From Alphaproteobacteria bacterium (GTDB taxonomy: Bacteria; Pseudomonadota; Alphaproteobacteria; GCA-2731375), in contig JAPKBD010000003.1 in assembly GCA_028824965.1 (NCBI GenBank), positions 1-48,962 of the forward strand: DNA of 48,962 nt. Reading direction: 5' to 3'. A program made the translations under genes and the position numbers. The number at the start of each line of letters is the position of its first letter. The first letter of the stretch is position 1. The notes beneath the pieces were generated by a model. That model saw only the letters and a program-made list of their open reading frames with translations. It did not search any database and was not told where the DNA came from. Below are positions 32,221 through 38,447 of the stretch, one piece after another.

Positions 32221-32317
32221 GCTGTTTGGATAACAGTTTACAATTCCTTAAATGAATCGATGCTAGGCTAATACTTCAATACGATGTGGTGGCCCAAAAG
32301 GCACATCACCAGGAGGG

Positions 32318-32400
32318 AAATCGAAAAGGCATACCGTCGGCGACGGCGGGACGCAAAGTCACCGGTCTGAGTATTTCAGATAGCGGGGCCGCCGAAGGGA
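32318..32400 (+). promoter_or_regulatory. Class I cyclic-di-GMP riboswitch (GEMM-I)
   Basis: The leader matches the GEMM-I aptamer in order: AAAAGGCATACC; a hairpin CCGTC-GGC-GACGG (32334-32346); the core GGGACGCAAAG (32348-32358) with ACCGG after it; a second hairpin TCTGA-GTATT-TCAGA; then TAGCGGGGCCGCCGA. In the family the first hairpin docks on the second and the core binds one cyclic-di-GMP. A ribosome-site sequence GAAGGGA (32394-32400) lies at the aptamer's 3' edge, nine bases before the ATG at 32410, so control is most likely at translation. A covariance-model search would settle the class, including the cGAMP-selective variant. Confidence 0.88.
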
Positions 32401-32409
32401 AATACGCTA

Positions 32410-32820
32410 ATGTCGACGGAAATGCCTGTATCGCTGCGCGCGATGATTGTTGATGATCAGCGCACAATGCGCTCAATTGTTCGTACACTATTGTCCCAAG
32501 TGGGAATTACCGATGTCATCGAAGCCGCTGATGGCGCGGAAGCGTATGCGAAGCTCGAGATGCCAGGCGAAACACCCCCCGATATTGTGATCTGCGATTT
32601 GCATATGAAGGATGGCGACGGGATGGCATTTTGCAACAAGCTGCGCCGTCACAAAAATGCTGACTTGGCACAGATCCCCGTTCTCATTCTAACCGGTGAT
32701 AGCGACGGCCTATTGCACGAGGTCGCGATGCAGATTGGCGCTGCTAAAGTATTGACCAAGCCTATATCCGCCCCTGATCTGGGGCGAGAGATCAGCCAGG
32801 CAGTGGGTTTCGCTGCCTAA
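32410..32820 (+). CDS. Stand-alone CheY-type response regulator under riboswitch control
   Basis: A 136-residue single receiver domain without output domain. The acidic pocket is Asp15-Asp16 (IVDDQRTMR), the phosphorylated residue Asp63 (ICDLHMKDGDG), Thr95 (LILTGDSDG) and Lys117 (LTKPIS), so it should be phosphorylated normally. It may act like CheY on a motor or as a phosphate relay or sink; the DLHMKDGDG block resembles receivers outside classic CheY. No histidine kinase is next to it. A cyclic-di-GMP riboswitch ends nine bases before the start, linking its level to the second messenger. The next gene, an acyl-CoA dehydrogenase, converges on it (12-base gap). Confidence 0.9.
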   Translation: MSTEMPVSLRAMIVDDQRTMRSIVRTLLSQVGITDVIEAADGAEAYAKLEMPGETPPDIVICDLHMKDGDGMAFCNKLRRHKNADLAQIPVLILTGDSDGLLHEVAMQIGAAKVLTKPISAPDLGREISQAVGFAA

Positions 32821-36892: not shown

Positions 36893-37336
36893 TTAGCTCA
36901 GCCACAGCCTCTGTTCTGCTGCCCGCCGGCGTACCAGGCCAGGCAGGATACGACCACCGGCCCGTCGCCATTTTGGGAATTCAGCTGCGGCCCCGGTCAT
37001 GTCGCCACGATTGGCCTTCATGCGCAGGGTTGAACGCTGCAAATTGCCAGCCCCCAGATTGTAGGTGAAGGATATCAGAGCGGAGAATTCATTTGATGTC
37101 AGGGGCTCGATAATCAATCGACGCACCGCGCGCTCGGTGTGCAGCAAAATTCTGAACAGCATAGCCTCGCCCTCAACCTGGGTAATTTTCCTATGCGCCA
37201 TTGTAAGTCGATTTCGATCCAGGCCCCAGATGGAGCCGTAGCCTATTGTTGGGATGCCGATAGGATCCCAATAGGGCCGCGGGGACCAGCCCTCAAAACG
37301 CTTGATAATCGACAAACCTTCTTTGCTGGTATTCAT
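36893..37336 (-). CDS. Phage-type lysozyme (glycoside hydrolase family 24, T4-like)
   Basis: A 147-residue muramidase. The catalytic triad Glu15, Asp24 and Thr30 (FEGW, YWDP, PTIGYG) keeps exactly the 9- and 6-residue spacing of T4 lysozyme E11-D20-T26. ALISFTYNLGAGNLQRSTL is the C-terminal-lobe signature. There is no signal peptide, so it needs a holin; the small membrane protein encoded just upstream (overlapping start ATGA) could serve. It is the last gene of the phage-like minus-strand block and ends 25 bases from the ubiE stop. Confidence 0.9.
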   Translation of the reverse strand: MNTSKEGLSIIKRFEGWSPRPYWDPIGIPTIGYGSIWGLDRNRLTMAHRKITQVEGEAMLFRILLHTERAVRRLIIEPLTSNEFSALISFTYNLGAGNLQRSTLRMKANRGDMTGAAAEFPKWRRAGGRILPGLVRRRAAEQRLWLS

Positions 37337-37521
37337 ATTCTTTGGAAACTTTTAAGGGCCCGGTGGCCGAACCAGAAACTCAAGATTGCCGCAAACAAAG
37401 CCCGGGTCTCGTCATCCCAGACCATGTCCAGGGTCTCTATCGTCACACCGTCAGAGCCGAAAATCAGATACATTGCAGTGGACTTAATAAAGACAAATTC
37501 CAGTACCAAGATATAGGTCAC
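37333..37521 (-). CDS. Small holin-like or phage membrane protein
   Basis: A 62-residue protein with two hydrophobic stretches (YILVLEFVFIKSTAMYLIF and LFAAILSFWFGHRALKS) and an acidic middle. It starts at a GTG one base inside the stop of the tail-fibre-like gene and its TGA overlaps the lysozyme ATG (ATGA). Place and size suit a holin for the adjoining lysozyme, but the FWFGHRAL ending is also seen in phage membrane proteins of unknown role. No homology can be claimed. Confidence 0.55.
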   Translation of the reverse strand: MTYILVLEFVFIKSTAMYLIFGSDGVTIETLDMVWDDETRALFAAILSFWFGHRALKSFQRI

Positions 37522-37847
37522 TACAGGGCGGACAGAGCCGCGTAGACCATCAACCCAAACGATGCCGACCTTTGGCTGGGCAGGTCATCCGGTTGGTCCA
37601 GGGGTAGAGCGCGTTTGCAGGTGATCGTCACTGCAGCAGCCCCTACTGCCCTGGGTGCTGTCGAATAAGTGACGTTGCCACCCGTATCAGAGCCGACGCC
37701 CGAAACTGAAAATCCCGTCGTAACCTCCGTTTCGTTCTCATAGATTTTTAGATGCGTCGCATCCAAAATTTTGAATGTATAGGGAAACAAAATTTGTCCC
37801 TCAGCCGCCGCATAGCGATCGACTGCCGTTGAAGCAGATAGCGTCAT
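37521..37847 (-). CDS. Phage tail-fibre/tail-spike N-terminal domain protein, C-terminally truncated
   Basis: A 108-residue protein whose first 90 residues look like the virion-binding N-terminal domain of podovirus-type tail fibres: RYAAAEGQILFPYTFKILDA, TEVTTGFSVSGVGSDTGGNV, PRAVGAAAVTITCKRALPLD. Such proteins usually go on for hundreds of residues; this one ends soon after QPDDLPSQRS. So it is either a fibre cut short during prophage decay or a stand-alone adaptor. AAGGAG seven bases before ATG 37847 gives a strong start. It leads into the holin-like gene. Confidence 0.65.
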   Translation of the reverse strand: MTLSASTAVDRYAAAEGQILFPYTFKILDATHLKIYENETEVTTGFSVSGVGSDTGGNVTYSTAPRAVGAAAVTITCKRALPLDQPDDLPSQRSASFGLMVYAALSAL

Positions 37848-37991
37848 CTGCATCTCCTTTGCGCTCGTGTGCCCAACAGGCACGGTTATCCACACCCCAA
37901 CCCAGGCTGGGACGCGGCTCCATAAACCAACCGAACGCCCTTAACGGACGCTGGGTCGGCAAATTCAATTTTTCAGATTTCGTTCGGGCTC

Positions 37992-38294
37992 TCAGCGTCG
38001 GCGCAACCCACCGCCACAAGCGGTGTGGCGGCAGCGTAGAGGTAGGCGGCGCCTTTGTTTTGTTCGGCCAGGGTCACCGCCATGATCAAGCAGTGCGTCC
38101 ATATGGGTGAACAGCCTCGGCGCGCGGCTCTTTTTGCGGCGTCGGCCTTCAGGTCCGGCGAAGGGGTCGATAACGTGATCCCTGCCAACCATTTCAAACT
38201 TGTTGTCTGCTTGCATCAAATAGTCGGTGGCGAAGGGATCATCTTCCCAATCCATGCCTTCGTCCGGTTTGCCGTTGGCAAATATGTCGATCAT
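37992..38294 (-). CDS. Hypothetical protein in the phage block, possible frameshift near its end
   Basis: A 100-residue protein of unknown family. The first 75 or so residues are acidic and ordered-looking (MIDIFANGKPDEGMDWEDDP, KFEMVGRDHVIDPFAGPEG), then the frame turns Arg-rich (RTKQRRRLPLRCRHTACGGG), which looks like a shadow. The neighbouring frame over the same bases reads MAVTLAEQNKGAAYLYAAAT to a TGA at about 37973. AGGAA nine bases before ATG 38294 supports the start. A frame change near 38080 (decay, error or programmed shift) would join the two. Confidence 0.4.
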   Translation of the reverse strand: MIDIFANGKPDEGMDWEDDPFATDYLMQADNKFEMVGRDHVIDPFAGPEGRRRKKSRAPRLFTHMDALLDHGGDPGRTKQRRRLPLRCRHTACGGGLRRR

Positions 38295-38447
38295 TTTTGT
38301 GGTTCCTGTCTGTGTTAAGTATGGGGAATGCCGTGTGTCGCCGAAGGCGAAAGGACCCAAAACAACGCCCAAACGAAATGGGGCCCAGCGCGATTGCTCG
38401 CGCGGGCCCTGTTCTGAGGCATTCGATTATTTGCAGAAATTTGACAC

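Follow-up and report, generated by a model that had tools for sequence, protein, structure and literature searches.

A conserved c-di-GMP class I riboswitch aptamer in front of a stand-alone CheY-like receiver gene in an alphaproteobacterial lineage

The locus analysed here raises the question of whether the leader of a small alphaproteobacterial receiver gene is a genuine cyclic di-GMP riboswitch and, if so, how it would act on the gene behind it. The window, i.e. the whole stretch of DNA that was analysed (48,962 nucleotides), contains a single Rfam gathering-level RNA match: the c-di-GMP-I (GEMM-I) covariance model RF01051 at positions 32318-32396 of the forward strand (59.9 bits, E 2.5e-09, all 87 model positions; curated gathering score, 35 bits). 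The original prediction had read the GEMM-I elements in order from the letters and had proposed this covariance check; the elements are all present as written: GGCATACC, a docking hairpin closed by a GCGA loop (a GNRA tetraloop, 32340-32343, forward strand), GGGACGCAAAG, ACCGG, a second hairpin (UCUGA-GUAUU-UCAGA) and UAGCGGGGCCGCCGA. The hallmark of RF01051, a GNRA-loop docking hairpin followed by a second hairpin with the conserved GACGCAAAG and AGCGG core, is found in this leader. Among 47 aptamers of the family, the core is near-invariant, 95% of the cells of the named structure are paired, and the helices are paired in 94-100% of cases, except P1 (86%). Compensatory changes, in which both sides of a pair vary, affect seven pairs and 37 cells of this alignment (shuffled means, 4.2 and 13.9), the covariation score is 0.217 (shuffled mean, 0.157), and four pairs changed on both sides in the eight receiver aptamers alone; the expected conservation of the core bases in relatives was thus borne out. 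The segment 32318-32396 is confirmed as a real, full-length GEMM-I aptamer and an ordinary member of its class, and its conserved placement in relatives rules out a chance match.

The aptamer ends 13 nt before the ATG (32410) of an intact open reading frame encoding a protein of 136 amino acids (32410-32820, forward strand). The only Pfam domain of this protein is PF00072 (82 bits, residues 12-125 of 136), and no kinase or output domain was found in it with Pfam, which agrees with its earlier description as a stand-alone CheY-type receiver. Nine orthologs all keep the acid pair D15/D16, the phospho-acceptor D63, T95 and K117, so the receiver should accept a phosphoryl group; the leader is placed, as had been proposed, where it could set the amount of a phosphorylation-competent receiver. 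The ccmF-G-H-I cytochrome c maturation genes precede the receiver gene, and an acyl-CoA dehydrogenase gene is convergent with it. CheY, encoded in the cheA-cheW-cheY-cheB-cheR cluster, is likewise a single receiver domain and, among proteins of solved structure, the nearest in sequence. However, the window protein is not a canonical chemotaxis CheY: it scores 63.8 bits against a CheY equivalog cut-off of 189, the alignment places a valine (Val114) at the position of CheY Tyr106, the motif KPI replaces KPF, and relatives have a separate CheY in their che cluster (genes named by inspecting translations, except cheA, identified by Pfam). Most relatives have a CheA, whereas no CheA dimerisation domain was found in the whole genome of the window (G000), reflecting either a loss or an assembly gap. 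Single receivers of the CheY type with a link to c-di-GMP are also known from Alphaproteobacteria as the Caulobacter proteins CleA-E, whose arginine-rich C-terminal tail, with tandem [YF]XGP[DE][RK]R motifs, binds the dinucleotide directly (PMC5677366). The window receiver ends instead at VGFAA, would be tied to c-di-GMP through its mRNA, and is not a Cle protein; an arginine-rich tail after the receiver domain is absent from all nine orthologs.

The same leader had been expected before orthologous receivers, and it was found there in the same place. Orthologs of 76-90% identity are encoded in seven other species of the genus; in all eight species, including that of the window, the aptamer lies 12-13 nt before the receiver ATG and ccmF-G-H-I precede in the same order. 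The receiver and its aptamer are either both present or both absent in 11/11 genomes of the genus, the three members devoid of the pair having kept other GEMM-I elements. A ninth case, locus L074 (NZDS01000037.1, a Rhodospirillaceae metagenome-assembled genome), encodes a homolog of 68% identity with the aptamer 13 nt before its ATG in an unrelated neighbourhood, which indicates that aptamer and receiver stay together even without shared gene order. For the remaining 54 homologs, of which nearly all reach no more than 62% identity, a model derived from the family aptamers gave no convincing adjacent match (best score 19 bits, versus 74-85 for the true ones), nor did Rfam detect an aptamer in the 17 of them that were scanned. 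The aptamer-receiver arrangement is lineage-specific.

This switch had been pictured as joining two signalling layers in one unit; the unit does not stand alone, but belongs to a regulon of the family that also takes in flagellin and three further gene families. GEMM-I elements were found in all 15 family genomes examined, five of them in the window genome, and the genes behind them encode a flagellin (272 amino acids, confirmed by Pfam), a Sel1-repeat protein adjoining flagellin, a 76-amino-acid protein, a 56-amino-acid protein and the receiver, which is therefore one of at least five family targets. The 76-amino-acid (MELNLSPS...SAVDSDTGQNIDLSV) and 56-amino-acid (MLSSISFMFDTYWT...FWSPHGAVM...) proteins, neither with a clear Pfam family, follow GEMM-I directly in many family species (L008, G000:C101, and L007, G000:C398, in the window genome; L011-L038 in relatives), and are possibly new motility or surface proteins. 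Such switches are uncommon in Alphaproteobacteria: GEMM-I was found in 25 of 289 sampled genomes. Outside the family of the window, the first gene after GEMM-I often encodes a ParA/MinD-like ATPase (SQKGGSGKTT; L143-L147, L149, L152, L153 and L160, one of them checked with Pfam), other first genes encode some secreted or PilZ-like proteins, and none of the 24 loci read has a stand-alone receiver. At another locus (L148 and L163, G208:C238:625-701 and 1122-1201), two GEMM-I aptamers lie about 500 bases apart, each before an open reading frame of 108 amino acids; one of these has a weak resemblance to PilZ, narrowly missing the Pfam cut-off, and, if the resemblance holds, would be a c-di-GMP-binding protein under a c-di-GMP riboswitch. 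Elsewhere in the window, a phage lysozyme gene (36893-37336, reverse strand; PF00959, 129 bits) and neighbouring open reading frames without a Pfam match, including 37521-38372 (reverse strand), lie between ubiE and a trcR-like gene and might be a phage remnant.

How the aptamer would act on the receiver gene is suggested by the short distance between them. The 13 nt from aptamer to ATG leave no room for an intrinsic terminator, which was ruled out as the expression platform, and control of translation is therefore the natural reading. The Shine-Dalgarno sequence GAAGGGA lies where it had been predicted, nine bases before the ATG (32394-32400, forward strand), and overlaps the 3' strand of P1 as the proposed expression platform; in nearly every family leader this strand (CCGAA) leads straight into the Shine-Dalgarno. 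The extended P1 pairs Shine-Dalgarno G bases in 22/23 cases for the flagellin leaders, 12/12 for those of the 56-amino-acid protein, 12/16 for Sel1 and 11/16 for the 76-amino-acid protein. In the receiver leaders, only 8/22 Shine-Dalgarno G bases lie within P1; the window copy contributes none of these, and its P1 has just three pairs (UCG with CGA); pairing further out encloses the Shine-Dalgarno in several receiver leaders (for example those of G003, G005, G006, G009, G010 and L074). Clamped folds of the P1 extension were only modestly better than shuffles (P = 0.07 for the window, a weak value), and because shuffling also destroys the core of P1, which every aptamer requires, and the sequences share ancestry, these energies alone do not prove the extended helix; a plain comparison of duplex energies gave no discrimination.

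In the proposed mechanism, the aptamer would fold at high c-di-GMP and lock its closing helix P1; as the 3' strand of P1 continues into the Shine-Dalgarno, ribosome binding would be hindered and receiver output would fall, whereas at low c-di-GMP P1 would open and the receiver would be made. Flagellin and the other family targets would follow the same design with stronger Shine-Dalgarno pairing, and this shared design makes the receiver probably a motility-phase protein of the c-di-GMP regulon. The OFF direction is favoured by analogy with the Vc2 GEMM-I riboswitch of Vibrio cholerae, which is described as turning translation off and in which the P1 helix of the GEMM-I aptamer controls the ribosome-binding site (PMC9262584), as is proposed here; Vc2 differs in its downstream gene, and in the window copy P1 itself does not pair the Shine-Dalgarno G bases. 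This weak pairing leaves the direction unproven. Overall, we assign a probability of roughly 60% to the reading in which the receiver leader is a canonical c-di-GMP-I riboswitch acting on translation, OFF at high c-di-GMP, and the receiver works in the motility phase. By the same analogy, the signal for sessile life probably lowers the receiver together with the flagellar filament protein.

The nature of the ligand and the direction of the switch are the points at which other explanations compete with this reading. Positions 32329 (G) and 32392 (C), both on the forward strand, are equivalent to the ligand-contacting G20 and C92 of Vc2, and, as had been anticipated, point to c-di-GMP as the likely ligand. 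Aptamers for cGAMP have an A where c-di-GMP aptamers have a G at the contact position, so the G of the window aptamer speaks against cGAMP. The GGC variant family (RF03167, c-di-GMP-I-GGC) was considered for its near-threshold score, 57.8 with a threshold of 59, and was ruled out: the score stays below the threshold and the window aptamer carries an A at the variant position, where the RF03167 consensus has a G. Together with the score of the classic model, far over its own threshold (59.9 versus 35), these bases make it very improbable that a different cyclic dinucleotide is sensed here, be it cGAMP or what the GGC variant binds, and the classic c-di-GMP reading is favoured. The twelve GGDEF matches in the window genome suggest that the organism probably makes c-di-GMP itself.

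The opposite direction was also weighed. In a translational ON switch, the 5' half of the ligand-free aptamer would pair with the sequence around the start codon (AGGCAUaCCGUCG with CGACGGaaAUGCCU) and c-di-GMP would free the start, so that the receiver would be made at high c-di-GMP. When the window leader is folded without constraint, it gains about 14 kcal/mol over the aptamer fold by pairing with codons 2-6, and about 98% of synonymous recodings of the first ten codons pair less strongly. The pairing is, however, not conserved: in the seven relatives P ranges from 0.05 to 0.94 (median of 0.25 over all eight leaders), the free and aptamer folds differ there by only 0.5-5 kcal/mol, and no conserved alternative structure of the full leader was found across the eight receiver leaders. 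Moreover, the fold model takes in neither tertiary contacts nor ligand energy, and the aptamer is transcribed, and able to fold, before the start codon exists. We consider ON control rather unlikely. It is also quite improbable that the aptamer is a relic, decaying or silent, with no effect on the receiver. The short P1 helix of the window copy and the lack of an aptamer in nearly all homologs with at most 62% identity would fit such a relic, but the core is conserved and sharply bounded, with compensatory changes, across nine genomes, and at L074 the aptamer accompanies the receiver amid unrelated neighbours.

Returning to the translational OFF reading, transcription of the receiver gene may add a further layer. 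CtrA binds the pattern TTAA-N7-TTAA, and a CtrA-like box with one mismatch to it (TTTA-N7-TTAA), a candidate promoter element of the receiver gene, is located at 32237-32251 of the forward strand. Boxes with at most one mismatch occur 71-95 nt before the aptamer in 9/9 receiver leaders and are also present in 10/11 flagellin and 6/7 Sel1 leaders, at about -60 from the aptamer for flagellin and Sel1 and about -85 for the receiver; such a box is contained in 5.3% of AT-matched 120-nt background blocks. The eight syntenic leaders are related and the window as a whole shows no clear excess (13 boxes versus 8 expected), so the evidence rests on the consistent place of the box across gene groups and on L074. 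Relatives, many of them with a close CtrA, encode a regulator recognised by inspection as CtrA-like; the genome of the window, at about 94% completeness, has only a partial match of 60% to it and no full-length copy, owing to a loss or an assembly gap. The receiver would perhaps be transcribed under CtrA, and we advance only tentatively a lineage-specific circuit in which a CtrA phosphorelay would set the transcription, and the c-di-GMP riboswitch the translation, of a phosphorylation-dependent stand-alone motility receiver in step with flagellin.

Placed among known systems, parts of this arrangement have precedents. GEMM-I had been described as known before motility genes, and the occurrence of c-di-GMP riboswitches before motility and chemotaxis genes is indeed established (PMC6366702). 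In C. difficile, the levels of phosphorylation-dependent response regulators are governed by the c-di-GMP riboswitch of cmrRST (PMC12548384), much as is proposed here for the receiver. That switch, found in Clostridia, differs in that its control is positive and acts on transcription, and its target is an operon of several genes, two of them for OmpR-family regulators, whereas the window target is a lone receiver. The earlier claim of novelty for joining c-di-GMP to a phosphorylation-dependent regulator was overstated in view of cmrRST and of the switches before chemotaxis genes. The C. difficile Cd1 switch, also of class I, turns flagellar expression down upon binding c-di-GMP (PMC9262584), although it does so by transcription termination, for which the window leader has no room between aptamer and gene. 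In the papers found on GEMM and CheY, no title or abstract reports a stand-alone receiver as a GEMM target. What is new is the receiver as a target, its lineage-specific conservation and the CtrA-like box upstream.

The receiver, the flagellin and the two small proteins outline a c-di-GMP riboswitch regulon in one alphaproteobacterial lineage. The receiver leader offers a clean, conserved case in which c-di-GMP would act on phosphorylation signalling through an RNA that sets the amount of a receiver, and not through binding to the protein.
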